A stretch of DNA of 42,116 bases from a virus: IMG/VR virus record IMGVR_UViG_3300032173_000014, positions 1 to 42,116 of that record; one strand, 5' to 3'. The notes beneath the pieces were generated by a model. It did not search any database, was not told where the DNA came from, and worked only from the letters and a program-made list of their open reading frames with translations. Below are positions 14,103 through 41,426 of this stretch, in pieces. The stretch's first letter is position 1. Each line of letters opens with the position of its first letter. The position numbers and the translations under genes are program-made.

Positions 14103-15323
14103 TCAGGTCGAGGAGGAGCTTGTATTGCTGGGCGTCACGCGAATCAGCGTGTACCACGGGCCGGGTACGACGTTGTAGTAGGCGCGGGCGGACACGTCGA
14201 ACTTCTCCCGCTGAATCACGCTGGCCTGGGCATTGGAGCCGATAGCGTTCAGGTTGTGGTCGATGCTGGCCGAAGCGAACATGGCAGCCGCGCCTTCGGA
14301 CAACTTGAACCCCAACGCATCGGACGCCTTGGCCGCCGCATCAATATTTTCTTGCGGATTGTACTGGTTGCCAAACATGGTCAGGTCGCCCGGCGGGGCG
14401 TAGGTCTGGTGAATGAACGGCTTGATCCCCAGCGGGTCGTTGACGATGGCGACATAGTAGTCCGTCTGCGTCACCGGGGTAACGGTTGTTCCGGCCACAT
14501 CGTCCACAACTTTTTCGGCAAACGGCGAGCAGAGGACATCCTTGACGAATTGCTGCGATACGTTGGTCGTCTGACTGATGACGCTCATTGGGGTCTGGAA
14601 GGCCAGACGCATCGCGGGCCGCATGAAGGACGGGGCGATGACGACGATATTATCCTTCGGGTCAATGTAAGGGTTTATGAATTGACCGTTGGTATTCTGG
14701 AAGGTCGAGAAAGCGTCGATGACCAACGCCAGATCATTTTGCAGTTTCTTGGCCAGAACAGCCTGATCGTTCAGGCTGTAATTCAGGAAGTCCGCACGGG
14801 TCGCGGGCAGGTTGCCGCGCACAATGTTCGACTGGTTGCCATATGCGCCGGCGGCATGCGTGTCGCTGAAGATGGGCTTACCGTCCAAAGTCATGGTATA
14901 GCTCACACCATCATTGCTGGTAAGCGTGGCACTGGAGGCCGTGGAGCCATTCAACAGGGCGGTGAACAGCGTGAGGTCGGGGGCCTGGGCGAGGATGATA
15001 CCCAGCCCCTTAAGATAGGCGGTAAACGCGCCGATCTGGTCAGTCTCGACATCCAGGCGATTCAACTCGGACCAATTCTTGAACAGGACATTCGGGATGT
15101 TCAATTGAAAACTCGGCGCGGAGGTGGAGCGCATGGTACCGGCGTAGGGCGATAAATTGGGGGGAGCGCCCAGAAAGGTATATGGCTCAACCTGACGATG
15201 TACCACCCGGTGCATGGCCAGCTTGGGATAGACCAACTCCTGGCTGCGTGGGGCGAATGTTCCAAGTAGGGCGGCGTTGGCAAGACCAACCTGGGAGACC
15301 GTGGTATTGCTGATGTAGGCCAT
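14103..15323 (-). CDS. Major capsid protein, Mu gpT-like
   Basis: 406 residues with a strong ribosome-binding site (CAGGAG, 7 nt spacing). Layout and phrases such as LKGLGIILAQAPDLTLFTAL, DGKPIFSDTHAAGAYGNQSN and IDPKDNIVVIAPSFM fit the HK97-fold gpT family (head subunit of Mu-like phages). The order protease, decoration protein, capsid protein, gp36-like, gpG-like supports this. The C-terminus ends TSSSST. A 56-nt leader holds a CCCCAC/GTGGGG hairpin, and a terminator follows the gene, consistent with individual dosage control. Confidence 0.8.
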   Translation of the reverse strand: MAYISNTTVSQVGLANAALLGTFAPRSQELVYPKLAMHRVVHRQVEPYTFLGAPPNLSPYAGTMRSTSAPSFQLNIPNVLFKNWSELNRLDVETDQIGAFTAYLKGLGIILAQAPDLTLFTALLNGSTASSATLTSNDGVSYTMTLDGKPIFSDTHAAGAYGNQSNIVRGNLPATRADFLNYSLNDQAVLAKKLQNDLALVIDAFSTFQNTNGQFINPYIDPKDNIVVIAPSFMRPAMRLAFQTPMSVISQTTNVSQQFVKDVLCSPFAEKVVDDVAGTTVTPVTQTDYYVAIVNDPLGIKPFIHQTYAPPGDLTMFGNQYNPQENIDAAAKASDALGFKLSEGAAAMFASASIDHNLNAIGSNAQASVIQREKFDVSARAYYNVVPGPWYTLIRVTPSNTSSSST

Positions 15324-15847: not shown

Positions 15848-17380
15848 TTACTTTTGGGTCAGGCCGAGCATGATGCGGGCCACGTCGGGGTTAATTCCGA
15901 GCCGGGCGCATTGCGCGACGGCGGCTTCGGCGGAGAAGTTCAGCGCCCCGGCGACGGCATCTTTCGGGTCGTCGCTGAGTCCTCTGGTCAGGGCGGCAGT
16001 CAGAGCGGGGGCGGTGGTTTTGGGGGTGGACAGCACCACGGCCTTGATTGCGCCAACTACGGCGGGATTGCCTTGGCAGGCGTTGAATTGGGCGTTCACT
16101 TCGTGCGCGCTGAATTGGTGCCCTTCTTTAATTGCGCCATCAACGAACTTGGTGAAGTCGGCGTGGGCGGCTTCGGAGGCAAATCTGGCGATGGCCTCGC
16201 TTTGCATCACGGTGACTTCCTCCAGACGCGCAATCTTGGCCGCATAGTTCTGTTCGTCTTCCGTCGGCTTTTCGTTCGGTAGCACAGCGTTGGATTCATC
16301 TTTGCGTTCCGGGATGTCCTTGAGGGCCTCCTCAGCATCGCCGTCATATGTGAGATGCCATTTGCCTTTCATATCCCGATTTTTGTAAATGGTCGACTTC
16401 TTTCGTGGTTTGGCGGCGTAGTCTTTGTCGCTGTGCGCATCATCGCGTTGGGCGGCAATAGCCTTGATCGCATCTCCGGTGTTTTTGCCGGACATGGGAT
16501 GCCCGGCAAAATCAGCGTCGGCTTTGTCCTCCTTGTGGGCCTCGTCCCAATCCTTGCGGGCTTCGGCGATTTTCTTTTCGCTCTCCGGCTCACCCGCCTC
16601 CGCCGCGGCGTAAGCGGCCATAAGCTTTTCGGTGGCGGCGCGTTTCTGAGGGTAGTTGTTCATGGTGGGACTCCGCAAGGGTTGCAACTGTGAAGGTTCG
16701 GTGCTGAAACACACCATTGTTTCGGACGCTGCGTAACGGACTTCCGTGTTTGGTAGGTGGGACAGAGCCGGAGCATGAGCGCCCAGGAGGGCCAGATGCC
16801 CGATGCGCTCGTTCAGGTTGCCGGCGTCGGCCACAATTCCAGGTGACAAACCGATAATTTTGGCTTGGGCCCAAGCGTCGGCGATATCGGCTTGCAGCCC
16901 CACGATATCGCATTCGTAAGTGTTTGGATCACCGCTGACGGCACGATATCTGATGGCTTTGCCAAATGCGGGCTTGAACTCGCCACCTTTGGTCGGATGA
17001 TCCAGCACCACGCCCGTGGCCCGACCGCATGTGGCATATTCGGCATTGGTGTTTTGCGCGATTTTTTGGATGCGTTTCAGGTCAAGGATGCTGTTCGGGT
17101 CGCTCCCCTTGATGGCGTTGGGATACAGCATGGGAACCCCGCGCACAACGAACGTTCCATCCGGTTGCTTTTCCAGTTTACGCACGTTGACCTTGCCGGT
17201 CAGATTCGGGCCGAGTTGTTTCCAGCCGTCGACGGTTTCGTACCATCCCGCCCGCTGGACATCGCGCCACGCCTGTTTTTCCACTTCCGCGGGTGCCAAA
17301 CCTTCATCCCGGTAACGCTTACCAGCGTCGGTATAAATGGTTTGCACAGCGTCAGGCATAGCGGCGGACGACAGATTCAT
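15848..17380 (-). CDS. Prohead protease/scaffold, Mu I-like, with ChaB-like N-terminus
   Basis: 510 residues. Residues about 8-50 (MPDAVQTIYTDAGKRYRDEG, a later AWRDVQ, then W) resemble the ChaB domain found at the front of some phage head proteases. Residues about 65-215 form the protease core: GVPMLYPNAIKG, then VLDHPT, and after GLSPG the region LNERIGHLALLGAHAPAL, which fits Mu I-type serine proteases. Residues about 240-390 are highly charged and helical, a built-in scaffold, and the C-terminal 110 residues form a helical domain. No good ribosome-binding site is seen at the ATG; a second ATG lies seven codons in. Confidence 0.8.
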   Translation of the reverse strand: MNLSSAAMPDAVQTIYTDAGKRYRDEGLAPAEVEKQAWRDVQRAGWYETVDGWKQLGPNLTGKVNVRKLEKQPDGTFVVRGVPMLYPNAIKGSDPNSILDLKRIQKIAQNTNAEYATCGRATGVVLDHPTKGGEFKPAFGKAIRYRAVSGDPNTYECDIVGLQADIADAWAQAKIIGLSPGIVADAGNLNERIGHLALLGAHAPALSHLPNTEVRYAASETMVCFSTEPSQLQPLRSPTMNNYPQKRAATEKLMAAYAAAEAGEPESEKKIAEARKDWDEAHKEDKADADFAGHPMSGKNTGDAIKAIAAQRDDAHSDKDYAAKPRKKSTIYKNRDMKGKWHLTYDGDAEEALKDIPERKDESNAVLPNEKPTEDEQNYAAKIARLEEVTVMQSEAIARFASEAAHADFTKFVDGAIKEGHQFSAHEVNAQFNACQGNPAVVGAIKAVVLSTPKTTAPALTAALTRGLSDDPKDAVAGALNFSAEAAVAQCARLGINPDVARIMLGLTQK

Positions 17381-17468: not shown

Positions 17469-17702
17469 ATGGAATCCATAGACATAACCTCGGTATCGTC
17501 ACCCCAGGTCGGAACCGTTCCCCAATTATTAACGGTCGGTTTAATTGCCCGGCGGTTTAATTCCACGATTGCCAAAGTGCAATATGTGATTAAATCCCGC
17601 CGTATCGTACCCACCGCGCGGGCGGGCAACATGTTTGTTTTTGACCCGGCGCAAGTGGAAAAAATCCGCCAGGCGTTGAACGCTATTGCCGCCCGGCATT
17701 GA
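17469..17702 (+). CDS. Small helix-turn-helix DNA-binding protein (excisionase/MerR-like)
   Basis: 77 residues. LLTVGLIARRFNSTIAKVQY, then VIKSRRIVPTAR and FVFDPAQVEKIRQAL, is the winged-HTH layout of MerR/excisionase-type proteins. It is the first gene of the + strand cassette, 10 nt before the first glycosyltransferase, so it is a natural candidate regulator of that cassette or of the divergent head operon. The ribosome-binding site is weak. Function beyond DNA binding is inference. Confidence 0.75.
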   Translation: MESIDITSVSSPQVGTVPQLLTVGLIARRFNSTIAKVQYVIKSRRIVPTARAGNMFVFDPAQVEKIRQALNAIAARH

Positions 17703-17712
17703 AAGGAACCAT

Positions 17713-18732
17713 ATGGATGCCATTTGTTTGATCGGCCATCCGTCGCATTTCGGCGGGGCCGACACGGAAGCGTTGGATGCGTTGAAGTTGTGGAGCCGCA
17801 TGGGGCTGCAAGTCCACATTCTCCCGACCGGGCCAATCTCGGACGGGCAGCGGGAATTGCACCTGGAAAAGCTTGGGTATGTCTATCATGCCGTTCGCGA
17901 TTGGCCGTCGCTTCAGGGGCTGCATGGGATTGCGTACTGCAACGAGAAGGCGTTGATCGACGCGGACACGATCCGGCGTCAGGCCCGGTCATTTACCTGG
18001 GTCGGTACGATGTGTTGGACGTGGCCGAAGTGCCTGCAAATGTCGAGCAATGGTTCCATCAGTCTTCATCTATACCAGACCCAGCATCAAATGGATGCCG
18101 TGCATCGGGAGATTTGTCAGGCCGCGCCCAAAGCTCGCGGCTTGGTGATCGTGCCCTATTTCGACGCGGACGATTTCCCGTTTGTCGATCCTGAATCACG
18201 CCCGCAAGACCGCTTCACTTTTGGGCGCATCAGTCGCCCCGATCCGGCCAAGTGGCACAAAGATCAATTCGAGATTTACCGACGTTTTGCTTCGCGGCGA
18301 CCCAAATCCGGCCTCGTGCTGGGCTGGGACACCAAACTGCGGGAAAAAGTCGGCGCGCCGCCGGAGTTCGTGAATTGCCTGCCGCCCAACGCCATCACCC
18401 GACAGGAGTTTTACCGCCGGGTATCGGTGTTGTGCCTGGCCGGTGACACGACCGAGAATCTGCCGCGCGTCGGCATGGAGGCCATGTCCAGCGGAACCTT
18501 GCTGGTGGTGGATAACCGGGGCGGATGGAAAGACGAGGTACCATCGAAATATACCGGATGGCTGTGTGACGGAACGGAGGATTTTGTCTTGCGGATGAGC
18601 GAGTGTGCCAATTATTCCAGCCGCGTGGCGGAAGGAATCAACCGGTCGCGCCAGATCGTGGCGTCCACCTGGGGCTTCGAGCAGGCAGCCGTATCATGGC
18701 GCAAAGCGTTTGATATCCTGGAGTCCATATGA
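17713..18732 (+). CDS. Glycosyltransferase, GT-B fold (GT4-like)
   Basis: 339 residues from ATG 17713 with AAAGGAA upstream; the frame is open a little further upstream. The N-terminus DAICLIGHPSHFGGADTEAL is a Rossmann strand and Gly-rich loop. The C-terminal half has TFGRISRPDPAKWHKDQFE and ENLPRVGMEAMSSGTLLVV, the nucleotide-sugar binding E-rich motif of GT-B enzymes. It would move a sugar from an activated donor to a phage or host glycan; donor and acceptor cannot be read. It overlaps the next gene by 4 nt (ATGA), so the cassette is an operon. Confidence 0.8.
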   Translation: MDAICLIGHPSHFGGADTEALDALKLWSRMGLQVHILPTGPISDGQRELHLEKLGYVYHAVRDWPSLQGLHGIAYCNEKALIDADTIRRQARSFTWVGTMCWTWPKCLQMSSNGSISLHLYQTQHQMDAVHREICQAAPKARGLVIVPYFDADDFPFVDPESRPQDRFTFGRISRPDPAKWHKDQFEIYRRFASRRPKSGLVLGWDTKLREKVGAPPEFVNCLPPNAITRQEFYRRVSVLCLAGDTTENLPRVGMEAMSSGTLLVVDNRGGWKDEVPSKYTGWLCDGTEDFVLRMSECANYSSRVAEGINRSRQIVASTWGFEQAAVSWRKAFDILESI

Positions 18733-19439
18733 TCCGTGCCTACAGCGTTTTGTACAACCGCCTCGACCTGATTGAAAAACAGGCGGAGCTTATGCGCCGG
18801 TTTGTTCCCGGCGCGCAATATGTCGCGGTCAACAACGGGCCGGATCGTCATGCCAATGCGCTGGCCCTGGAAAAAATGGGAATCCTTCACCTGGAGGTTT
18901 ATGAGGATGGCGACGGGATGCCGAGCATGAGCCACGGACGGGCGATGAACGCCGCGTGGCGTAACGCCGAAAAATGCGGCTGCGCGGCGTTGCTCTTGGA
19001 ACAGGACGTTTTTCCGATCAAGCCCATCGACCTGTCCGCGGAAGTTGCGGAGGCGTATATCTGCGGACACCTGCGCACATATGCCGAGCCGGAGAATCCC
19101 CAAAACACGGCCAGCTATTTTTTCCCCGGATTGATTTACCTCAGCCGGGCGGTGCCTTTGCCAGACCTGATCGACTTCCGCCCCGGCGCACAACATGGGA
19201 TAAGTTGCGATACCGGGGCCGCGATGGATGCCTATTTGTCGGCCAATCACGGGTTGCCGGTTAAAGAATGGGCTGAGCGGCAATGGCAGCCTGGCAAACA
19301 GTGGCACATTTATAATGATCAGTGGGTACATTTTTGGCACTCGTCGGGATGGATTGACAAGGGCCAAAAGTGGCATGAAGACATCAAGGAAGAACTGCAA
19401 CGCATAACGGATGGCGTTTACGCCGCTGGAAAGAATTGA
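18729..19439 (+). CDS. Glycosyltransferase-like protein (GT-A type)
   Basis: 236 residues. The N-terminus MIRAYSVLYNRLDLIEKQAE looks like the first strand and helix of a GT-A fold. AALLLEQDVFPI at about 86-97 holds an acidic ExD in the DxD position for metal and sugar-nucleotide binding. The last third is rich in Trp and His (QWHIYNDQWVHFWHSSGW). It starts on the ATGA overlap with the upstream gene. Family number cannot be assigned by eye; an atypical GT2-like enzyme is most likely. Confidence 0.65.
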   Translation: MIRAYSVLYNRLDLIEKQAELMRRFVPGAQYVAVNNGPDRHANALALEKMGILHLEVYEDGDGMPSMSHGRAMNAAWRNAEKCGCAALLLEQDVFPIKPIDLSAEVAEAYICGHLRTYAEPENPQNTASYFFPGLIYLSRAVPLPDLIDFRPGAQHGISCDTGAAMDAYLSANHGLPVKEWAERQWQPGKQWHIYNDQWVHFWHSSGWIDKGQKWHEDIKEELQRITDGVYAAGKN

Positions 19440-19446
19440 GGAACAC

Positions 19447-20148
19447 TTGAGCCTAAAGCTTAACATCGCGTTGTTCTGCGTCGCCACGGGCGGATATAGC
19501 GAGTATGTCCCGGCCTTGTGGGGATCGGCGTTGCGGAACTTTCTGCCCAGCCACAACCGTAAGTTGATTCTGGCAACGGACGATTTTCAGGTGGGAAAAC
19601 ACGAAGCGGACATTATAGCCATTCCTACCGAGCATCGGCCCTGGCCGTTAGCGACGTTGGGGCGCTATGCCCTGCTTACGCAAGAGTTCGCCGTCCTGCG
19701 GAGCTTTGATTATGTTTTTATGATCGACGCGGACATGAAGTTCAACAGTGTGGTAGGCGCGGAAGTGTTAGGCGAAATCGTCGCGGTACAACATCCGGGA
19801 TATGCGGGCAAACCCTGGGATACATTCCCGCTGGAATCCAATCAGCATTCCACCGCCTACCGCACGCCCCACAATTACACGACGTATTATGCGGGGGCGT
19901 TCCAGGGTGGGACTATGCGGACATATCTGGATGCCTGCGGGCGGATAGCGCGGGCGATTGCGGCGGATTCCGCGCGAAAAATTACCGCCCGCTGGCACGA
20001 TGAAAGCCATTGGAATGCCTACCTTGCCAACTTTCCGCCCGATATTATTCTCGGCCCGGAATACTGCTGGCCACAGCCCGCGGTTGACGCCGCTTTTGCG
20101 CCGCACGCTAAAATAGTTGCCTTATACAAAAAAAGGAAACCCCTGTGA
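19447..20148 (+). CDS. GT6-family glycosyltransferase (blood-group/alpha-1,3-Gal type)
   Basis: 233 residues from TTG 19447 (GAGGA four bases upstream); an ATG at 19411 is an alternative but overlaps the previous gene by 29 nt. FDYVFMIDADMKF carries a DxD (Asp94-Ala-Asp96). VAVQHPGYAG, then TTYYAGAFQGGT, ARWHDESHWNAYL and GPEYCWPQ match the order of conserved blocks in GT6 enzymes (HPG, YY-GGF-GG, WHDESHLN, PEY). GT6 enzymes transfer Gal or GalNAc in alpha-1,3 linkage with retention. Many bacterial members have NxN, while this one keeps DxD as in the animal enzymes. Confidence 0.85.
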   Translation: MSLKLNIALFCVATGGYSEYVPALWGSALRNFLPSHNRKLILATDDFQVGKHEADIIAIPTEHRPWPLATLGRYALLTQEFAVLRSFDYVFMIDADMKFNSVVGAEVLGEIVAVQHPGYAGKPWDTFPLESNQHSTAYRTPHNYTTYYAGAFQGGTMRTYLDACGRIARAIAADSARKITARWHDESHWNAYLANFPPDIILGPEYCWPQPAVDAAFAPHAKIVALYKKRKPL

Positions 20149-20780
20149 TTCCCAAAATATTTCATCGTATCTGGGTAGGTAACAACCCCATGCCCGCGGA
20201 GTTTGTAAGGTACGGGCAAGGTTGGATTGACCGGCATCCCGGCTGGGAAATGCGGTTATGGACGGATGCCAACCGCCCGCACCCATTGCGCAACGAAGCC
20301 CTGTACAGCGCGAATCGCCCCGCGGCGGAACGCTCCGACATTTTGCGCTGGGAGTTGATGCTGCAATTCGGCGGGGTGTATATCGACACGGATTTCGAGT
20401 GTATCCGCAATATCGAACCCCTGCTGGCGAATCATGCGGTATGTATGGCCCGCGAGAGTGATACATATCTGGCAAACGCCTTTCTTGCCGGCAAACCGTG
20501 GCAACCGTTGTTCCGCGTGGTTGTCGAAGCTCTCGCGGCCAAGTGGCGGCGCGACCGGAAGAACGTCTCCGCCAACTCCGGCCCGATGTTCCTCACCGCC
20601 CTGTTGAAAGAGCATCCCGAATTGGTATATCACACTATCGGTCATCGGGACGTATTCCCCGACCGTACCAACCCAGCCGCGGTTGCCGCGGCCTACGCCG
20701 TTCACCACTACGCCGCGTCCTGGGTGAACGCCGACACCTTCAGCGCGGAAAGCGGCTGGGAGCATCTTCATGGAAAATGA
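20145..20780 (+). CDS. Glycosyltransferase, GT32 type (DXD sugar-binding)
   Basis: 211 residues from GTG 20145 (AAAGGAAA upstream; overlaps the previous stop). IPKIFHRIWVGNNPMP at the N-terminus and AERSDILRWELMLQFGGVYI followed by DTD (81-83) are the signature of the DXD-containing Och1/GT32 group. NVSANSGPMFLTALL also fits the family. It would use UDP- or GDP-sugar with a metal ion. It sits in the same + strand operon as the other glycosyltransferases and overlaps the next gene by 11 nt. Confidence 0.85.
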   Translation: MIPKIFHRIWVGNNPMPAEFVRYGQGWIDRHPGWEMRLWTDANRPHPLRNEALYSANRPAAERSDILRWELMLQFGGVYIDTDFECIRNIEPLLANHAVCMARESDTYLANAFLAGKPWQPLFRVVVEALAAKWRRDRKNVSANSGPMFLTALLKEHPELVYHTIGHRDVFPDRTNPAAVAAAYAVHHYAASWVNADTFSAESGWEHLHGK

Positions 20781-21462
20781 ACAAGAGCGGTTGAGCTATG
20801 GTTCGCATGTACCGATGGTTCGGGCGGCGTTGAATGTCCTTACGCCCAGGCGCATCATTGAATGCGGCGGCGGTCGGTACAGCACGCCGGAGTTTTTGCG
20901 GTCGAACGCAAGCGTTATTCTGACCATCGAACATGACGAATCGTGGCGGGAGGAGGTCAGGAAGATCGGCGCCTCGGTAGAACCGCGTACTAATCAATGG
21001 GACTTGGAACTGTTGCCCATTCCCATCGACAATGCGACGGAGCGGCGACATATGACGGCCCAACAAGCTGACGGGTGCGACATCCCATATATCCGTCTGG
21101 CCCGGACGCTGCATTATGCGTCGGGCACCCTGCTTTTCGTGGACTGTGCCAGCGGCGCGCGGTGCGCGGCGTTAAAGGGGTTGGGGCATCTGGCCGACAT
21201 CGTGATCCTACACGACACGCAAGACGTTAATTATCAGTATTATCATTATCCGCAAGGCGTGGCCAGTCTGCCCGGCGCGTGGTGGCGTTTGCGCTATGAG
21301 ATACCCGGAGGGCAATACCCGGCGACGGATATTCTCCTGTCCGCCGGTTATCTATTTTTAACGCCGCAGTTGCGGACGGAACTGACCACAGCGCATCGGG
21401 CGTGGTGCAACCACGCGCCCATGACCTTCACGGAAATGGAACACGTCGACAATCCAAAATAA
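20770..21462 (+). CDS. Class I SAM-dependent methyltransferase-like protein
   Basis: 230 residues. RRIIECGGGRYSTPEFL (about 27-43) is a motif I-like E-x-G-x-G loop, and ILTIEHDESWREEV a motif II-like acidic strand end, both typical of class I methyltransferases. LLFVDCASGARC and IVILHDTQD are further strand-ends (the latter as in O-methyltransferases). Within a glycan operon it may cap or decorate a sugar. Catalytic residues cannot be confirmed by eye. Confidence 0.65.
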   Translation: MENEQERLSYGSHVPMVRAALNVLTPRRIIECGGGRYSTPEFLRSNASVILTIEHDESWREEVRKIGASVEPRTNQWDLELLPIPIDNATERRHMTAQQADGCDIPYIRLARTLHYASGTLLFVDCASGARCAALKGLGHLADIVILHDTQDVNYQYYHYPQGVASLPGAWWRLRYEIPGGQYPATDILLSAGYLFLTPQLRTELTTAHRAWCNHAPMTFTEMEHVDNPK

Positions 21463-21472
21463 AGGCCTACCA

Positions 21473-23305
21473 ATGCTTCCCAAGATTGATCTCATCGTCG
21501 GCATCCTCTCGGCGTCCGGTTATGACGCCCGGCGCAACGAATGCCGCGCTACGTGGATGAGCGCCCCATATGACCGCCAGCGGGTTTTGTGCTTGTTTCT
21601 CGTCGGTGATCCGAATATCCCGGCTCCGGTATGGGGAGGGGACACGCTCTGGCTCCCCTGCCCGGACGACTATCCGAGCCTGCCGCAAAAGACCAGGGCG
21701 TTCTGCCGCTGGGCGCTGAATACCTTCGATTTCGGGCACCTGTTTAAGTGTGATGATGATACATATGCCGTGCTCGATAGAATGCTGAAATACGACCATG
21801 ACGGTTCGGCTTACACGGGTCGGGATATTGGCGGTTACGCCTCGGGCGGGGCCGGATACTACCTCACGCCCCAAGCCGCGCGGATTGTGGCGGACCAAAT
21901 GACCGCGGCGACGGGGGCCGAAGACTTATTGGTCGGGCAACACCTGGCGCGGGCGGATATCAAACTGGTGGCGGACGCCCGGTTCGGATCGTGGTATGTC
22001 AAGGATGAGCAGCCGCGCCAGGGTAATGAGCTCATTACCGCCCATCCGTGCGCCCCCCGTGGCGGCGGCCCGCTGGGATTCTATCGGATGGCGGATATTC
22101 ACCGGGCATATGGCGGCATATACACCATCCCCGGCAAAGTGCCGGCGTCCGAGATCGCCCCGCCCGTGGAGGTTATTTCGCACAAGCTGGGGTTTGGCGA
22201 GTTGGGCCTGGGCGGTGATCGGGGGTTCGTGGTTGGCGGGGAAGGACGCAAGGTAAGCCCACCCAACGATGGCACCGACTGGCGGGGGTATTTTCTCATC
22301 TCCGCCCATGCCCCCAGCCAGATCGATGTAAGGCCCACGCGGGGGGCGGTGGAGGTGTTTGGCTTCCTCGATATGGCGTCCTACAGCAAGGACGGGCGCG
22401 CACAAAGCCCGGTATCTTTCGTCGTGAACGAACATACGCTCGCTATCCTGACCACCCCCACCCTTGGAACCCATCGCACGCCATCCATCCGCATCGACGG
22501 GGGCAGGCTGTCGACCATATGCGGAAACGACCACACGCGACGTTATGCGGTTTGGGCGGTGCGCACCATCGACCCCACGCCGCCGCGCATCGTCATTCCA
22601 ACCAGCGATAAGTATGGCGGGAAGGACGGCCCCCTTGCCGCCACGCTCAAGATGCTGGACAAATACTGGCCCAACCATCCTTCGGTGACGGTTATTCATT
22701 ATGGCAATCCGCCGCAAGTTGAAGGCGTTGAATTATTCGCCGCCGGTCGGCAGAACATGGTTTCCTGGGCGGACGGCCTGGTCGCCTACCTCCGGTCCAC
22801 CCCAGCGGAAACGTTCTACCTGCTGCTGGACGATTATGCCTTGTGCGCGCCGGTGCAAGACGGGAATCTCCGCTTTGCCGAAACCACGATGCACAACCGC
22901 CTGGATATCGGCTGCGTCTATTTGACCGGAATGCACCCCAATTGCCGGGAATCCTCCACCATTTCCGACCGGCTCCACACATATGCGGCATGGCCCTACG
23001 CGTTCCACCTGCAAGCGGCCCTCTGGCGGAGAACTTCATTGCTGCGGATACTATCCGCCTGCCCGGGAAAAAACGCCGGGGATACCGAGCTGGCCGGATC
23101 GGCCCACCACAACCGGGCGTTGCACCACGCGGAAATACTGGCGGGATTCATCGACGCCAACACGGGAAATCAATCACTGTTCCTGGATGAATCATCCAAA
23201 ACCAACTGGACGCTGCCATATCACAACCTGGTGCGCGGCGGGGCGGTCGATAAACGCCATACCGCCTATTTACAGGAGCATGGAATGACGGTGATTTTGG
23301 GTTAG
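21473..23305 (+). CDS. Two-domain glycosyltransferase (GT31-like plus second GT-A-like domain)
   Basis: 610 residues. The N-terminal domain has RRNECRATWM near 20-30, FKCDDDTYAVLDRML with DDD at 94-96, GYASGGAGYYLTPQAA (121-136) and EDLLVGQHLA (150-159), the block order of beta-1,3-galactosyltransferase-like GT31 enzymes. A beta-rich middle region (about 260-365) follows. A second domain starts near 368 (PPRIVIPTSDKYGGKDGP) and contains FYLLLDDYAL near 445-455, another acidic metal-binding loop. The gene ends convergently, overlapping the MuF gene by 36 nt. Bifunctional transfer is inference. Confidence 0.75.
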   Translation: MLPKIDLIVGILSASGYDARRNECRATWMSAPYDRQRVLCLFLVGDPNIPAPVWGGDTLWLPCPDDYPSLPQKTRAFCRWALNTFDFGHLFKCDDDTYAVLDRMLKYDHDGSAYTGRDIGGYASGGAGYYLTPQAARIVADQMTAATGAEDLLVGQHLARADIKLVADARFGSWYVKDEQPRQGNELITAHPCAPRGGGPLGFYRMADIHRAYGGIYTIPGKVPASEIAPPVEVISHKLGFGELGLGGDRGFVVGGEGRKVSPPNDGTDWRGYFLISAHAPSQIDVRPTRGAVEVFGFLDMASYSKDGRAQSPVSFVVNEHTLAILTTPTLGTHRTPSIRIDGGRLSTICGNDHTRRYAVWAVRTIDPTPPRIVIPTSDKYGGKDGPLAATLKMLDKYWPNHPSVTVIHYGNPPQVEGVELFAAGRQNMVSWADGLVAYLRSTPAETFYLLLDDYALCAPVQDGNLRFAETTMHNRLDIGCVYLTGMHPNCRESSTISDRLHTYAAWPYAFHLQAALWRRTSLLRILSACPGKNAGDTELAGSAHHNRALHHAEILAGFIDANTGNQSLFLDESSKTNWTLPYHNLVRGGAVDKRHTAYLQEHGMTVILG

Positions 23306-24208
23306 ACCACCGCCCCAACCCCGGTCGGGAAACTTGCCCGTCTCATAGTTCGTTTGGCTCGCCGTGTTGGGCCAGCGAATCTCCACCTTGAATTGCCCGT
23401 CCTTCGTCATCCAGCCCCGGCGGACGGCTTGGGCGAGCGTGTGGTATTGGGCGAAACATCGGCAGTTAAATCCTGCCGGGGGCGTCACCGCCGCCCACAC
23501 CGGATGATCCCGTCGGGCGATAAACCCCGCCATCGCCATATGCGTGGGGCGTACCGCCCGATCATCCCGGGTATGGTAACTGGCCATCGGGAACGCCGCG
23601 CCTACGACGGGATCAGCCAGCATCAATTGCTCGCTCAGGTTGGTGATTTCGGCGATGCTGTTCCGCCGGTGCATCTCCAGGCGGTAAATCGGCACCGGAA
23701 TATCGTCTTGGCGGTTGGGGGCCCGCCGGATGGCCGCCGTGGTGCGTATATCCCCGCCCGCGGGTTTGGACGTATCAACATGATACGATTGGTTCATTTT
23801 GAGCATGTCCCGGCGCAGGGCATCGTGGCGGCGGGATATAAAGTCCTGCTCCACCAGCGTAATAAGTCGGGCTTTGTCGATGATGATCGGTTGCGTAATC
23901 GCCAGGTGATCCTGCAACCACGGATTCGCGGCGACCAGCCGGGGGATATCCATATCAGTTTGTGTCCGGGCGTTGGCCGGCACCACCAGGCCCAAGGCCG
24001 TCGCTTGGTACCGCAACATCCCCGCCGCATGGATATCGACCAGGTGCAGCATCTGGAGGATGGATTTCTCGAATGATTCCCAAGCGGCGGTATGAACCCG
24101 GCCCTTGCGCCGCGCCGCGGTGTCCGCGATTTGCAGGTATAGTTTCCGCGTGGCGTTGAGGTGCCACACATACCACCATTCCAACCACGTGAGGGGGCGG
24201 CGCGGCAT
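23270..24208 (-). CDS. Phage head morphogenesis protein, MuF
   Basis: 312 residues from ATG 24208, 2 nt after the upstream stop; an upstream in-frame start at 24355 overlaps that gene by 145 nt and is unlikely. The C-terminal MuF core is clear: YHTRDDRAVRPTHMAM, then RDHPVWAAVTPPAGFNCRC, the H...HP...PPxxxxCRC motif of the gp7/MuF superfamily. These minor head proteins bind the portal and enter the capsid. The last 12 codons overlap, on the opposite strand, the end of the glycosyltransferase cassette. Confidence 0.85.
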   Translation of the reverse strand: MPRRPLTWLEWWYVWHLNATRKLYLQIADTAARRKGRVHTAAWESFEKSILQMLHLVDIHAAGMLRYQATALGLVVPANARTQTDMDIPRLVAANPWLQDHLAITQPIIIDKARLITLVEQDFISRRHDALRRDMLKMNQSYHVDTSKPAGGDIRTTAAIRRAPNRQDDIPVPIYRLEMHRRNSIAEITNLSEQLMLADPVVGAAFPMASYHTRDDRAVRPTHMAMAGFIARRDHPVWAAVTPPAGFNCRCFAQYHTLAQAVRRGWMTKDGQFKVEIRWPNTASQTNYETGKFPDRGWGGGLTQNHRHSMLL

Positions 24209-24210
24209 GG

Positions 24211-24567
24211 CTACGCTAATTCCGCCAGGCAGTGTCCCAGCCGATCCATATGTGCGGCCAGCGGCGCATAGTTTGCGGCGGTCAGCTTGTGATTCCCCGC
24301 CCAGGGAACCGTCACGGCGGTGGGCAACGCGCTCCAGGATTCCCAGACGGCGCACAGTCGCCGGGCATCACCCGCCAGAATCTCCCGCCGGTGTTCGGCC
24401 AGATCGCGGGCAACTTCGGCTTGTAACAGGCGCTCCTGCAGGCCCAGCACATTATCCGCGGTCTGCCGCAAATACGCCTGCATTTCGCGGTTTTGATCCT
24501 GGGGAAAGGCGGTATCCATAAACGTGGCTATGGCACGCAGTTTTTCCGGATCAATCAGGTTTTTCAT
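24211..24567 (-). CDS. Small helical hypothetical protein in head operon
   Basis: 118 residues, predicted mostly helical (LRAIATFMDTAFPQDQNREM at the front, later LQERLLQAEVARDLAEHRRE). The start overlaps the upstream stop as TGATG with AAGG upstream, so it is translationally coupled. Between portal and MuF genes, it may be a minor head, assembly or scaffold-like factor. No family recognised. Confidence 0.7.
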   Translation of the reverse strand: MKNLIDPEKLRAIATFMDTAFPQDQNREMQAYLRQTADNVLGLQERLLQAEVARDLAEHRREILAGDARRLCAVWESWSALPTAVTVPWAGNHKLTAANYAPLAAHMDRLGHCLAELA

Positions 24568-24863
24568 CAGGCACCTTCTTTTTCTTGGCCGGCAACTTTG
24601 GCGGCGGGGGGTTCCAAGGCGGCGTTAGTGTCGGCGGAATCATGGCGGGGATCGGGTGTATCCAGGGCGATATCAGCGGAAGATTCCGCCTCCTGGTTGA
24701 TTATTTTTACGGATTCCGCCCAAACTTCGCGTAAATAGGGATCGGCAATATCGTCCCCGCCGGGCACGGGGTAGTGCTCCACATCAATATTTCCCTCATC
24801 ATCAAGGTCCGGGGCGTTCAATTCCGCTTCGCTCATATGTCGGCTTGTAGTTTGCGTTGCCAT
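24567..24863 (-). CDS. Small acidic hypothetical protein in head operon
   Basis: 98 residues, strongly acidic and Pro/Ala-rich, probably largely disordered (DLDDEGNIDVEHYPVPGGDD). GGAG lies about 10 nt before the ATG. The start overlaps the portal/topoisomerase gene end by 31 nt and the stop overlaps the next start. An acidic disordered protein here could be an assembly or DNA-mimic factor, but nothing proves that. Confidence 0.65.
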   Translation of the reverse strand: MATQTTSRHMSEAELNAPDLDDEGNIDVEHYPVPGGDDIADPYLREVWAESVKIINQEAESSADIALDTPDPRHDSADTNAALEPPAAKVAGQEKEGA

Positions 24864-27439
24864 GATTTAAATATCTCCGGGTGAATGTAATTATCGCGCG
24901 CCTGGGTGGGCGTGTTGTTCAACACGGCGGCGACTTCGCCGCTCATTTTTAGAATCGCCGCCGCGATGGATTTGGCATCCTTGACTTTGTTTCCCGCCAG
25001 GGGCGGCGGCGGGCCGACAAATGATTTTACCACCTCGCGGGCGGTTTCGAAGGCCTTTAACGTGCGTAAATCCTTAATTTTCAGGTTGGCCGGGCCACCG
25101 ACTTTTTGGCTCACTTCCTGCAACATTTTGCCCGCGGTATGGCTGTCGGCCTGGGGGAAAATAAAGTCTTCCGCGCCGCCGCGCATGGCGTTGCGCAAGA
25201 AGGCCACGTTTTCCTTGTCCCGGATGATGGTTTGGTTGCGCACGCCCGCTTTGCCGATGAAGTCCAAATGTACCGTGTCTCCCACCATTTTGAGGTGGCG
25301 GTTCTGCAACGAGGCAATGCCAAAATGTCCATACTTCACTGAATCGCGGCCATCGGTGGGACGCAAGCCGGTTTCGCGTATAAGCGACGCGATGGCCGCG
25401 CTTTCACGTGCAACTTGGGGCGTTTTAGCGTCGGTCATCCTGTCCCGCAGGGCGGCGGATATTTTCGCGATGTGCGGTTCGATGGTTAGCACGCGGGCCA
25501 ACTTCACCGCGGCGTTGCGCTCGTGAAACGCCCGCGTGTAGCGATATTGCCGGGAAACGCGGCCTTTTTTGCTGGTCTGATTCCAGACCAGCAAGGGCTG
25601 GTAGCGCAAATCTTCCGGCGCTTGGGTAAGATCGGCCATGCGCAAATCCGTCACGGCCAGACGGGTGGACGGGAAGTTGCCAAACATGCCCAGGGCGCGG
25701 AGTTTTTTCTTGCGGGATTCGTCGATGGACGTGACGGGGGTTCCGTGGGTTCCGTGGGTGCCGGGAGTTCCGGGGGTTCCGGGGGTTCCGGGGGTTCCGG
25801 GGCCTTGGCCCTTGGGCACAAACTGGCCGGGGTTTTCCGGCTGGCCCCGGGGATGCTCCGCTTCCTTGAACTCCGCCGCAAAGTCGGACGTAAACGTGCC
25901 CCCGCCATCCGCCACGGCCCCACCGCCGGAGCCCACGGGATTAACCGCCCGGCCATCCTTGCGGGCCACGCCCGGCTGCGCCAGGCCCGCGCCGGGAATG
26001 CCGCCGAACATATCCGCGGCACCGCCCAGATCGGGCTGGCCGTTGAATACCGTGGGCTCTTCAATCCGGCCATCCTCGCCCTTCTTGGGCTCGCGCACGC
26101 CACTGGCTTTGTACACCTCATCCTCCGGCACGGGCACCAGCTGGGCCGCCTTGAGCATGACATCCATCCGCTGCGTTTGGTCTTTTTCTTCGGTGTGCTC
26201 GGTCAGGTGGCGCGGGAAGGCATAGATCGGCAAATCCCGCCACCGCGCGTTCCCACGCACAATCGCGGGAATAAGCTGTTTGTTGAGCGGCTCGTCAATC
26301 AACACCTGGGCGTCATACCGAAACGCAATCGCCGGGCCGGTGTCTTTCTGGCTGGCAATGGCTGAGTATGAGCCGTTGGCACCGACTTCCATGATATTCG
26401 CCCCGCACAGAATGATCTTTTCAATCGCCGGCTTCACAAAAGTTTGCCGCAACTCGCTGAAAGCGTCATACCCCATCTTGGGCGGGTCGGCAAAGTCCAC
26501 GTCCCAGAAGTAATCCTTGCTCTTGCCCGCCGGCTTGGGGATGCGAATCACCGATTCATTGCGGATAGACCTGGCGACCGACATTACGCTGCCGGGGTCT
26601 TGATTATCGGGATGATACAACTTGGTCATGGGCATACCGTGCTTTTCCAGCCACTTCATACGCCACCTGGTGGCGAAGGCATCCATCGTCACCGGCAACC
26701 ACAGCGCCACATCCTCGCCGATGCCGTAAAACTGATACCCCGTATCGCTGGGCCGCGTCCACGTCGGCTGCCCGCGTTTGTACACGGCATAAACGAATCG
26801 TCCCTGCGGCAACGGTGACCAAGCTTTGATACTTTTATCCTGGAACGCGCCGTTGGGTGTCGCCCCCACGTAAGAACCCCACACCGGAGTTTCCCGCGTG
26901 AGTAGCGCTATGCGATTCAGGCGGTCAAACACAAACCGCGTCTTATGCACCGGTTGCCAGTCGACAGGTTTAGTGTCGTCGCCATCCTGTACCCACAAGA
27001 ACTCCAGCCCCTGCCCGCCCATCAGGACGCCGTAATAGACCAACATGAAGAACATCTGCCGACGGTTGGGCAGAGCGGTCAGCACGTCGTTAACGTAGTC
27101 CGCCACCTCTTGCGCCAACGCCTCGTCCACCCGCTTATCCGTCGCTTTTTCTACGCGGGTGGGCAGGCTGGATACCGTCATGGCCCGCAGGTTCATGCAC
27201 GCCGCCACATCCGGATGCATCAGCAACTTCTTGTCAAAGTTGCCGTCCGCGCGCAACGCATCATCAGGATCGGTAATGGCATCCAGCCAGTTGTCGTAAA
27301 GCGTCTCCGGCGTGGCGGCAAACCCGCCCGCTTGCGCCCCGAGCTCCGGTCGCCAAACGGAACCCAGCGTGCTGTTGGCCGGGGATATGTACTGCCCCTG
27401 GGGATGGAAGTTGGCCGGAGTATTTAAGAACGCGGGCAT
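24833..27439 (-). CDS. Portal protein (Mu gp29/DUF935-like) fused to a type IB topoisomerase domain
   Basis: 868 residues, far longer than a usual DUF935 portal. Residues 1 to about 460 are portal-like: DKKLLMHPDVAACMNLR, LVYYGVLMGGQGLEFLWV, LPLPQGRF-like blocks, and KPAIEKIILCGANI with a following QKDTG. A linker follows (about 470-575) with HPRGQPENPGQFVPKG and a GTPGTPGT collagen-like run. Residues 576-868 form a complete TopIB domain with LIRETG (Arg688), NRHLKMVGDTVHLDFIGKAG (Lys730), KDLRTLKAFE (Arg792), LNNTP (Asn842, His position) and QARDNYIHPE (Tyr851). TopIB relaxes supercoils through a 3'-phosphotyrosine. AAGGA precedes the ATG. Confidence 0.88.
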   Translation of the reverse strand: MPAFLNTPANFHPQGQYISPANSTLGSVWRPELGAQAGGFAATPETLYDNWLDAITDPDDALRADGNFDKKLLMHPDVAACMNLRAMTVSSLPTRVEKATDKRVDEALAQEVADYVNDVLTALPNRRQMFFMLVYYGVLMGGQGLEFLWVQDGDDTKPVDWQPVHKTRFVFDRLNRIALLTRETPVWGSYVGATPNGAFQDKSIKAWSPLPQGRFVYAVYKRGQPTWTRPSDTGYQFYGIGEDVALWLPVTMDAFATRWRMKWLEKHGMPMTKLYHPDNQDPGSVMSVARSIRNESVIRIPKPAGKSKDYFWDVDFADPPKMGYDAFSELRQTFVKPAIEKIILCGANIMEVGANGSYSAIASQKDTGPAIAFRYDAQVLIDEPLNKQLIPAIVRGNARWRDLPIYAFPRHLTEHTEEKDQTQRMDVMLKAAQLVPVPEDEVYKASGVREPKKGEDGRIEEPTVFNGQPDLGGAADMFGGIPGAGLAQPGVARKDGRAVNPVGSGGGAVADGGGTFTSDFAAEFKEAEHPRGQPENPGQFVPKGQGPGTPGTPGTPGTPGTHGTHGTPVTSIDESRKKKLRALGMFGNFPSTRLAVTDLRMADLTQAPEDLRYQPLLVWNQTSKKGRVSRQYRYTRAFHERNAAVKLARVLTIEPHIAKISAALRDRMTDAKTPQVARESAAIASLIRETGLRPTDGRDSVKYGHFGIASLQNRHLKMVGDTVHLDFIGKAGVRNQTIIRDKENVAFLRNAMRGGAEDFIFPQADSHTAGKMLQEVSQKVGGPANLKIKDLRTLKAFETAREVVKSFVGPPPPLAGNKVKDAKSIAAAILKMSGEVAAVLNNTPTQARDNYIHPEIFKSWQRKLQADI
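25740..25802 (-). repeat. 9-bp minisatellite encoding the Gly-Thr-Pro linker
   Basis: Seven tandem 9-bp units on the + strand (three variants, then four identical copies of GTTCCGGGG). On the coding strand they give the (GTP)n and GTH linker between portal and topoisomerase domains. Copy number is likely to vary between isolates without breaking the frame. Confidence 0.85.
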
Positions 27440-27449
27440 ATGGTTATCC

Positions 27450-28727
27450 TTAAATCGTCATCGTGACGGTTTCGTATTCCAGGCCGCTGGAGGCACCGGG
27501 CGACGCTTTCCCCGCGCTCTCATAATACACCGGGGGCAACTCGCGATACAACGGACGATGTTGAACCGCTAACGCCAGAGCCATGACGCCATCATCGGTC
27601 ATGCCCGCCACGGTAGCGTACCGCACGCCGGTTTTCGTATATTCGTACCCGAAAGATTCCAGTTCCGTCGTCAGTAAACCTGCGGGAATACGCAACTCCC
27701 GCCGCTGTAGCGCCGCGGCCAAGCCTTCCATCAACCGCTGTTTGGATGGGCCGGAGAAAATATAGCCTTCAATCAACGGCGCGGCGGTTTGCAAACGTGC
27801 CACGACCGGATCACCCAGGCCGGTGGCGTCAATCAAGGCCGGGGTGTCCCTGACCGCATCCAGGATGCGCCGGTGGGACTGCTCCCAGTCCGCCTGCCAA
27901 CGGTCGGAATAGCACACGCCGCCGGACTTGTTCAGGCCGATCACCCACAGCCAATCTTGCTTGCGGGCCAAGTCGATGCCGAACACCTCAGGTGGGCCGC
28001 TGTCCAAGGCGTCGATGGTGCAAGCGCGGATGGCGTCCATACCGAACGGATTACTTCCATCATCGGACGCTTCCGCCATAAACAGCTCCTGGAAAACCGC
28101 AGGAGGCAGTTGACGTTTGGCGTCGTCAATTTCCGTGGTTTTTAGAACTCCCCCCGCGATGGCGTCCAGCGCGGTCAAGCGAAAGTACGCCATATGGGGC
28201 GCGCCGGACTCGGCTAGGCGGGCCAATTGATAGGCCCAGTTCTTGCGCCCGCGCACGTTGCCGATCACGCGTACCGAACCTTCCGTGGCGGTCAGGGTGG
28301 AGCGTACCGCATACCACGCCTCGGCTTTGGCGCGACTCGCCTCGTCGATGACCGCGGCGAACACATCCTCGCCATAAAGCAGGTCGGGACGATCCGCGCC
28401 CTTAAACCAGAGGCATGCCCGGTTTTTCAACGTGATTGTGCAATCGCTTAAATTAGCTGTCCAGAACTCTTGCCGCAAATCCGTGCGGAGCAGCATATTT
28501 TTCATGCGGCGAAAGGCGATCTTGGCCACGGGCAGCGTTGGGGCAATCCACCAGTAGTTGCGGTTGGGCTTGGGGGCCGTCCACGCCTGCGCCAGGAGCC
28601 AGCAGATACAGGAGATGGTTTTCCCGGATTTGGTGGAAGCCTCGATGATCGAGAACCGTTCCGGCGTGAACACCGCAGCTTTTTGTTTCGGATAGAGCCG
28701 CGGAAACCTGAGGGTCACCGCGGTCAT
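27450..28727 (-). CDS. Terminase large subunit
   Basis: 425 residues from ATG 28727, preceded by GGAGG; the frame is open 11 codons further up. Walker A is EASTKSGKT (29-37) and Walker B DVFAAVIDEAS (121-131), followed by the coupling region. The C-terminal nuclease domain begins near FGIDLARKQDW, whose Asp would be the first metal ligand, with ALIDATGLGDPV as the next acidic strand. It packages DNA by ATP hydrolysis and cuts concatemers. It lies just upstream of the portal gene; a degenerate IS remnant separates it from the small-subunit candidate. Confidence 0.9.
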   Translation of the reverse strand: MTAVTLRFPRLYPKQKAAVFTPERFSIIEASTKSGKTISCICWLLAQAWTAPKPNRNYWWIAPTLPVAKIAFRRMKNMLLRTDLRQEFWTANLSDCTITLKNRACLWFKGADRPDLLYGEDVFAAVIDEASRAKAEAWYAVRSTLTATEGSVRVIGNVRGRKNWAYQLARLAESGAPHMAYFRLTALDAIAGGVLKTTEIDDAKRQLPPAVFQELFMAEASDDGSNPFGMDAIRACTIDALDSGPPEVFGIDLARKQDWLWVIGLNKSGGVCYSDRWQADWEQSHRRILDAVRDTPALIDATGLGDPVVARLQTAAPLIEGYIFSGPSKQRLMEGLAAALQRRELRIPAGLLTTELESFGYEYTKTGVRYATVAGMTDDGVMALALAVQHRPLYRELPPVYYESAGKASPGASSGLEYETVTMTI

Positions 28728-28743
28728 AAAGACCTCCGGGATA

Positions 28744-28958
28744 CCCCTGCCTTTAGGCATGGGGAGGGATAAGAGTTGGCGGTATTCCGCCCAAGTATCA
28801 GCACACCGGCGTTCCCGTCGTGGCGGTTGACCCGCGCCATACGAGTCGCCTTTGTCCTGCTTGTGGGGGTATCAACAAAGCCAAGCGAAAGAGTCAAGCT
28901 AACCTCCTTTATGTGTCGTGCGGAGCCGGGGGGTTGTTTACTGGTCGAACTCGATCTT
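28744..28958 (+). pseudogene. IS200/IS605-type remnant: end hairpin plus TnpB C-terminal zinc-ribbon fragment
   Basis: CCCCTGCC-TTTA-GGCATGGGG (28744-28764) looks like an IS200/IS605 terminal hairpin. A second stem, TTGGCGG/CCGCCCAA, follows. The + strand frame from 28757 to 28958 has no start and reads YQHTGVPVVAVDPRHTSRLC, then PACGGINKAKRKSQ and a later VSCG, which is the C-terminal zinc-ribbon block of TnpB/OrfB. It then runs out of homology. The rest of tnpB and any tnpA are absent. The fragment fills the gap between the terminase genes and overlaps 21 nt of the upstream gene. Confidence 0.75.
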
Positions 28959-40326: not shown

Positions 40327-40695
40327 ATGTCTGCTACTATTTATGTAATGGGTGATTGGAGTGTGGAAGACTTGGTTGACGCTATGCTCAGCCAGGTGGA
40401 TATTATCCCGCGCCCGGACGTGTGGCAGCGCGGGCAAGGTGATCGCGAGGTCGCCTGCATGGTAATCGACGAAGCAGACTATTACTTTCAGGTTGACGTT
40501 ACGGCGTGGTGCGTCCTTAACTCAACCTGCTGCGCCAACAACGCCCTGGCCACGGCGGAATCAGTCCCGTGGGAATACCGCGAAATATGCTGCGATCTCA
40601 CCCTAAACATCGAAGCCGACGGGGATTGTCTGGTTCGCCGCGTGGGGGAAAAGTATGTGGCAAAATATCACTTGAATATCGCACCATCGCGCTAA
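40327..40695 (+). CDS. Hypothetical early protein upstream of recombination genes
   Basis: 122 residues with AAGGAG upstream. Acidic, mixed alpha/beta, with several Trp and Cys (WCVLNSTCCANNALATAESV, REICCDLTLNIEADGDCLVR). It is the first gene after the structured leader and 11 nt before the ERF gene, so it belongs to the recombination operon. No family recognised. Confidence 0.7.
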   Translation: MSATIYVMGDWSVEDLVDAMLSQVDIIPRPDVWQRGQGDREVACMVIDEADYYFQVDVTAWCVLNSTCCANNALATAESVPWEYREICCDLTLNIEADGDCLVRRVGEKYVAKYHLNIAPSR

Positions 40696-40706
40696 GGAGC
40701 AAGCTA

Positions 40707-41426
40707 ATGGAAAATGAAATTGTCCCGGCCCCCGACGAACAAATCACGCCCATGACGCTCATGGCCCGCGGCATCGAGGCTAAAATGTCGCCCGAACAAC
40801 TCGGCAAGTTCATGGACTTGCAGGAGCGCTGGGAGCGGAACCTCGCGGCTAAGCAATTCAGCGAGACCCTGGCCAGGTTTCAGGGGGTGTGCCCGCAGAT
40901 CAAAAAAAATCGTGGCGTATCCCTCACCGGCAAAGCCACGCCCGATTACATGTTCGCTTCTTACTGCGACATCATGGCTGTGATTCAGCCCCTGCTGGCG
41001 TCCTGTAAGTTGTCAGTATCGTTTTCCAGCGAGCAAACCACCAATGGAGCAATCACCGTGGTATGCACGGTGCGCTGCGGAACACATGCGGAAAAGTCAA
41101 CCATGACCATCCCCATCCCCGCCGCTATGCGGGTGAATGATTCGCAAAAAATGGGCGCGGCCATGAGTTACGCCAAGCGGTATGCCCTGTGTTCCGCGCT
41201 CAACATCGTCGTGACCGATGAGGATCGGGATGCGCAATTTCCCGACGATGTAATCACCCGCGACCAGGTGAAGATCATCGCCGATTTAATTGCCGCGTCC
41301 GGCACCGATGTGGCGAGGTTTCTGACCTGGGCCGGCGCTGACCAGTTGGCCGATTTGCCGACCCGCCAATACCAAATCGCCAAAGCCATGCTGGAAAAAA
41401 AACTTGACGCGGGAGAAGCAAAATGA
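40707..41426 (+). CDS. ERF-family single-strand annealing protein
   Basis: 239 residues from ATG 40707 (AAGGAG upstream); the frame is open further up inside the previous gene. LAAKQFSETLARFQGVCPQI, TPDYMFASYCDIMAVIQPLL, VVCTVRCGTHAEKSTM and then QKMGAAMSYAKRYALCSALN followed by EDRD match the ERF core (the strictly placed GA..SYakRYal.s.l.i..eDdD). It anneals complementary single strands for phage recombination and DNA repair. It overlaps the exonuclease gene by 4 nt, the usual SSAP-exonuclease pair. Confidence 0.9.
   Translation: MENEIVPAPDEQITPMTLMARGIEAKMSPEQLGKFMDLQERWERNLAAKQFSETLARFQGVCPQIKKNRGVSLTGKATPDYMFASYCDIMAVIQPLLASCKLSVSFSSEQTTNGAITVVCTVRCGTHAEKSTMTIPIPAAMRVNDSQKMGAAMSYAKRYALCSALNIVVTDEDRDAQFPDDVITRDQVKIIADLIAASGTDVARFLTWAGADQLADLPTRQYQIAKAMLEKKLDAGEAK

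Follow-up and report, generated by a model that had tools for sequence, protein, structure and literature searches.

In the window (the whole stretch of 42,116 nucleotides of viral DNA analysed here), one gene encodes a protein that joins a Mu-type portal to a domain with the features of a complete minimal type IB topoisomerase (TopIB), and the existence of this portal-TopIB fusion in one protein is confirmed. The portal-borne TopIB is putatively a virion cargo that travels inside the head, is most likely cut free and leaves with the genome to relax the incoming DNA; a probability of about 0.6 is assigned to this reading. Fusions of portals to cargo domains are already known (Iyer 2017, PMC5512222), and TopIB would represent a new class of cargo. 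Related fusions in dozens of uncultured phages suggest that many phages pack a topoisomerase in their heads, and, as judged from their sequences, they probably deliver it together with the DNA.

The portal-TopIB protein

The gene is located at 24833-27439 on the minus strand (as are all the features of the protein described below) and the ORF analysis of the window showed a single unbroken frame of 868 codons, which agrees with the initial annotation, where the strand was absent. Two Pfam families were detected in the 868-aa protein, Portal_Mu (PF06074, E 1.4e-25) and Topoisom_I (PF01028, E 4.1e-15), both exceeding the gathering score. The family profile of the whole protein retrieved solved portal chains (about 1e-52) and TopIB chains (1e-16) from the PDB.

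The portal domain, of the Portal_Mu or gp29-like type, covers aa 72-447 (26099-27226), and its match spans positions 7-335 of the 336 of the profile. The portal half that had been proposed from the sequence is also supported by the PHROG match (phrog_113, E 9.7e-15), and the family profile of the portal matched the PDB portal chains 9mt4, 11bp and 9c39 with E values of about 1e-49 to 1e-52. The portal is followed by a linker with the stretch FKEAEHPRGQPENPGQFVPKGQG (aa 524-546, 25802-25870), which corresponds to an EHPR...GxF..KG motif identified by alignment and by a family-wide scan with a scrambled-motif control. Repeat analysis placed at 25735-25802 a 9-bp minisatellite of 7.6 copies encoding (G-T-P/H)n, so that the Pro/Gly linker with a repeat of this length was correctly recognised at the outset. 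The TopIB domain occupies aa 576-868 (24836-25714), with the Pfam core at aa 641-864. The AlphaFold model of the full-length protein had a pLDDT of 52.

The topoisomerase domain

Five residues, R693 (codon 25361-25363), K730 (25250-25252), R792 (25064-25066), N842 (24914-24916) and Y851 (24887-24889), are invariant in the alignment with 18 relatives and constitute the full Arg, Lys, Arg, His/Asn, Tyr set of TopIBs. The initial annotation had named Lys730, Arg792, Asn842 and Tyr851 correctly, but its first arginine, Arg688, has to be replaced by Arg693 (in TGL-R-PTD) because R693 is invariant across the 18 relatives whereas R688 varies. The bacterial TopIBs included in the same alignment also show Asn at the His position.

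The limits given earlier to the domain (residues 576-868) are consistent both with the Topoisom_I profile and with the AlphaFold model of the domain, which was built from the 18 relatives and reached a pLDDT of 91.5. When this model was compared with the PDB, the best match was the variola TopIB 2h7f (E 5.8e-12), the human, Leishmania and Deinococcus radiodurans enzymes also being among the best, and every one of the 22 matches at E<=0.001 was a TopIB. A tyrosine recombinase or integrase identity is ruled out, since recombinases appeared only at E 2.4e-3 or worse. By its fold and its intact conserved catalytic residues the domain would be a complete minimal type IB topoisomerase, and relaxation activity is predicted for it. 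Between the TopIBs of two other contigs (L068 and L069) dN was 0.043 and dS 0.458, and the resulting dN/dS of about 0.09 indicates that their TopIB is under purifying selection.

The head-gene neighbourhood

The portal gene sits between the terminase and MuF genes, all on the same strand. Directly upstream is the gene of the terminase large subunit (27450-28760, minus; phrog_2, E 2.9e-33) and downstream that of a MuF-like minor head protein (23270-24355, minus; PF04233, E 8.8e-8; phrog_220, E 1.4e-16), while a Mu gpT-like major head protein is encoded at 14103-15323 (minus; PF10124, E 4.6e-9). From these profile matches, the window carries a Mu-like head module. A 510-aa product encoded at 15848-17380 (minus), adjoining the major head gene, is a tentative candidate for the head protease or scaffold (hhalign E 0.013, probability 3%), and it gave no Pfam or PHROG match. 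Within the head module there is also an opposite-strand gene run (17686-23305, plus) with matches to Glycos_transf_1, Glyco_transf_6, Gly_transf_sug and Galactosyl_T, and an ERF-superfamily recombinase is encoded at 40569-41426 (plus; Pfam E 3.3e-19).

Relatives of the terminase, 44-56% identical to that of the window, were found in 33 contigs (L002-L034). Their portals differ from the portal of the window, and tblastn of both halves of the fusion against these contigs gave nothing significant, which indicates that this terminase and the fusion are not inherited as a unit. Several of them contain long portal-MuF or other multi-domain ORFs. One of these contigs, L024 (1339-4518, plus), encodes a 1060-aa portal-MuF-like ORF in which an intein-like insert (CLLPGTPVTAL...) ahead of a conserved HPNC...CRC end was read by eye.

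Recurrence of the fusion and other carriers of TopIB

Single-sequence scans of viral contigs with the whole protein, and then with its TopIB, gave no matches. A search of viral contigs with a DNA pattern built on the active-site tail of TopIB revealed the same portal/TopIB order in three further contigs, L066, L067 and L070 (also labelled L054, L044 and L059), with ORFs of 819-839 aa; the search for portal plus TopIB architectures that had been recommended therefore produced relatives. These proteins are collinear with that of the window over portal, linker and TopIB, and the window protein and L067 share 26% identity over 851 columns (E 7e-55). That misassembly or a frameshift fused two genes, for which the 9-bp minisatellite at the junction might be invoked as able to mislead assembly, is rejected as practically negligible because the full-length order is repeated in these three contigs without the minisatellite, and many more contigs join other portals to TopIB.

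In two further contigs TopIB is joined to a portal family unrelated to Portal_Mu (L055 being a Phage_portal_3-TopIB protein), L051 is a MuF-TopIB fusion, and the module was also found on head-protease (DUF2213), SNF2-helicase, NUDIX and methyltransferase proteins, or solo. The SNF2 helicase and TopIB form one ORF in L068 (6017-10837, plus) and L069 (6260-10837, plus), where a distinct motif, GPxGGKWAxxEHTIPx, is present twice.

A second, broader TopIB DNA pattern gave at least 65 distinct TopIB proteins, 38 of which were scanned with Pfam; among the matches listed, all 38 contained Topoisom_I. The partners among these listed matches were Phage_portal_3 (9), Phage_Mu_F (9), NUDIX (4), DUF2213 (3), Phage_portal (2), Phage_portal_2 (1) and Portal_Mu (1), counts in which different portal models may overlap on the same protein. 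Independent support came from BLAST, with at least 8 distinct portal-type N-termini among the further TopIB proteins listed. No variation was seen at the catalytic R, K and R of the 38 proteins (matches listed), the N and Y being imposed by the search pattern.

In the tree, the phage cargo TopIBs are split from the bacterial TopIBs with a support of 95/93. The TopIB of the window clusters with L064 (98/86), where the domain is fused to a non-portal polyprotein, and it is also near L055, which has another portal family, and apart from the other Mu-type portal fusions. Portal_Mu and Phage_portal_3 must each have been joined to TopIB at least twice, and a single origin appeared in 0% of the bootstrap trees. 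These repeated joins, together with the variety of carriers, indicate that TopIB moves between proteins as a cargo module, for which the portal is one carrier.

No match to the fused portal-TopIB was obtained in named phages, and the scan of bacterial genome contigs showed only 4 weak bacterial TopIB-like loci. Among 794 genomes of two phyla there were TopIB matches only, and the 20 loci inspected (G300, G219, G449 and G503 left out) were of the cellular type and unfused, so no prophage host of the fusion was found there.

The EHPR linker motif

The motif [FW]xExEHPRxxxGxFxxKG precedes TopIB in the protein of the window, where its loop is longer than in the form used for scanning, and similar stretches are found ahead of TopIB in L066, L067, L051 and L076. 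In L066 the gene after the portal-TopIB gene encodes an ADP-ribosyltransferase (Pfam E 8.7e-15) with the same linker. A DNA pattern for EHPRxxxGxFxxKG was scanned on viral contigs, using as control a pattern with P and H swapped: the EHPR pattern alone was found at 61 loci and the scrambled control at 0. Two features not imposed by the pattern accompany it, namely F, W or Y four residues ahead of the motif (54/54 distinct sites) and E two residues ahead (48/54). Pfam analysis of the 53 distinct motif proteins showed portals, MuF proteins and head proteases together with ADP-ribosyltransferase, InPase, PBECR, NUDIX and RelA/SpoT domains, all five of them known polyvalent-protein cargo, and three TopIBs; the PBECR and InPase domains are known from the fusions described in Iyer 2017 (PMC5512222). 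Only 27 of the 65 further TopIB proteins (matches listed) carry a recognisable motif, which, like the longer loop of the window version, speaks against the cargo reading.

In isolates and prophages the motif matches were weak. They correspond to HI1409-type or annotated portals in a Helicobacter prophage and in Faecalibacterium FP_Brigit, to a protein adjoining the terminase in Pseudomonas phage Orimi01, and to an EHPR-like match in gp78 of the cultured Gordonia phage Boopy (L145), beside portal, MuF and ADP-ribosyltransferase genes. A literature search for the string EHPRD returned unrelated papers only.

From this distribution we infer that the motif has a role in cargo. It is conceivable, with chances somewhat short of even, that many uncultured phages carry a virion TopIB as a mobile cargo domain and that the EHPR motif serves portals, MuF proteins, head proteases and solo effectors alike as a common signal, either to bring cargo into the head or to release it there by cleavage. 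In addition, effectors delivered by virions could be looked for simply by means of this motif.

Possible role of a putatively virion-carried topoisomerase

In the proposed mechanism, the C-terminus of the Mu-type portal would hold the EHPR-motif linker and the complete minimal TopIB as cargo. The portal domain would form its ring at the vertex of the head, which would place the TopIB domains, being C-terminal, inside the prohead on its inner surface, to be packed with the DNA in the virion. The linker would most likely be cut at head maturation, the TopIB domain would exit with the genome into the new cell, and there it would remove supercoils of either sign from the incoming DNA ahead of phage gene expression. 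That the domain is present in the virion, cleaved, ejected, enzymatically active and beneficial to the phage is a deduction, and comparison with three systems favours a TopIB that is carried, freed and ejected. First, the last 124 residues of the Mu portal gp29 are missing from the virion structure, a loss attributed to protease I (PMC11915804), and the extension of the window portal occupies the position matching this lost tail. Second, the C-termini of the P22 portal point into the capsid (PMC4992974). Third, Iyer 2017 (PMC5512222) regards the enzymes borne by portal and MuF proteins as packaged and injected.

The initial annotation had considered two roles, an enzyme carried with the DNA and a swivel at the channel, and the former is now the better supported. 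It is unlikely that TopIB stays anchored on the portal ring and relaxes torsion during packaging or ejection. The portal is the DNA channel, the P22 portal C-terminus faces inward around the DNA path (PMC4992974) and several portal families acquired TopIB independently. However, the same module is found on MuF, head-protease, SNF2, NUDIX, methyltransferase and solo proteins, so that a position at the channel is not general and its carriers do not have in common a set of twelve copies around the portal. Besides, cargo without any role in DNA topology bears the linker motif too, and in Mu virions the portal is believed to have lost its C-terminal tail to cleavage (PMC11915804).

It seems equally improbable that the domain is an injected effector against the host or its defences, acting on host chromosome topology or as a nuclease-like poison rather than as a helper of phage DNA. 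Iyer 2017 (PMC5512222) reads such domains as injected conflict factors, and the linker motif and the carriers are in common with ADP-ribosyltransferases, PBECR nucleases and RelA/SpoT domains. Nevertheless, the catalytic residues are those of a TopIB that religates normally, nothing pointing to a loss of religation, and by sequence an effector would be indistinguishable from a helper of phage DNA.

TopIBs can show sequence preference, and the fusion gene adjoins the terminase gene, which could point to a packaging element that only binds DNA or cleaves it at specific sites, for instance in the recognition or finishing of genome ends; this is very doubtful, as all five catalytic residues are conserved and many of the partners of TopIB are not packaging proteins.

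A virion-carried TopIB that relaxes incoming DNA would place DNA topology beside ADP-ribosyltransferases and nucleases in the protein cargo that phages seem to bring into cells, and it offers a testable idea on how phages handle supercoiling before their own gene expression.

Comparison with known systems

The protein resembles the polyvalent proteins and the portal- or MuF-fused effectors of Iyer 2017 (PMC5512222), where an enzymatic domain likewise comes after a head-protein domain and the partners are mosaic, and where portal fusions to PBECR, 2H and InPase are reported in addition to MuF fusions. The predicted target in the window is the topology of DNA instead of RNA, nucleotides or the modification of proteins. 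In the main text of that paper, topoisomerase is not listed as cargo and the word occurs only in the title of a reference. In the literature searched (most subscription journals and all bioRxiv preprints being outside it), 'portal protein' was not found together with 'topoisomerase IB', and neither TopIB as a cargo nor the EHPR motif was found described. The initial suggestion that no portal-TopIB fusion had been described thus holds within this literature, but the fusion is not isolated, as it recurs in uncultured phages and portal- and MuF-fused enzymes were already known.

Mu gp29 belongs to the same Pfam portal family and has a C-terminal extension past the portal core that protease I is believed to cut, whereas the extension in the window is a folded enzyme, and no TopIB is described on gp29 in the part of the source consulted (PMC11915804).

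The TopIBs of bacteria (D. radiodurans, 2f4q/3m4a, and proteobacterial homologues) likewise have a catalytic Asn and consist of an N-terminal segment and a catalytic core, but they are stand-alone chromosomal or plasmid enzymes, and the phage cargo forms constitute their own group in the tree.

The poxvirus (variola/vaccinia) enzyme is a minimal viral TopIB and the closest solved fold, although it is stand-alone and belongs to a eukaryotic virus. It has His, not Asn, at the fourth catalytic position. Poxvirus TopIB is packaged in the virion, and poxviruses are an independent parallel for a virion-borne TopIB.

Jumbo-phage TopIBs (PaBG, RHEph12, LR745208; PMC7824862) are of the same Pfam family, with about 20-26% identity, but are encoded by ordinary separate genes, which indicates that virion carriage is not necessary for every phage TopIB. 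In LR745208, a 485-kb uncultured phage (L037), the TopIB gene lies directly after the portal gene (phrog_16240, E 5.3e-21), and in Rhizobium phage RHEph12 (L038, 514-2923, plus) it is found two genes ahead of a PAAR-repeat gene.
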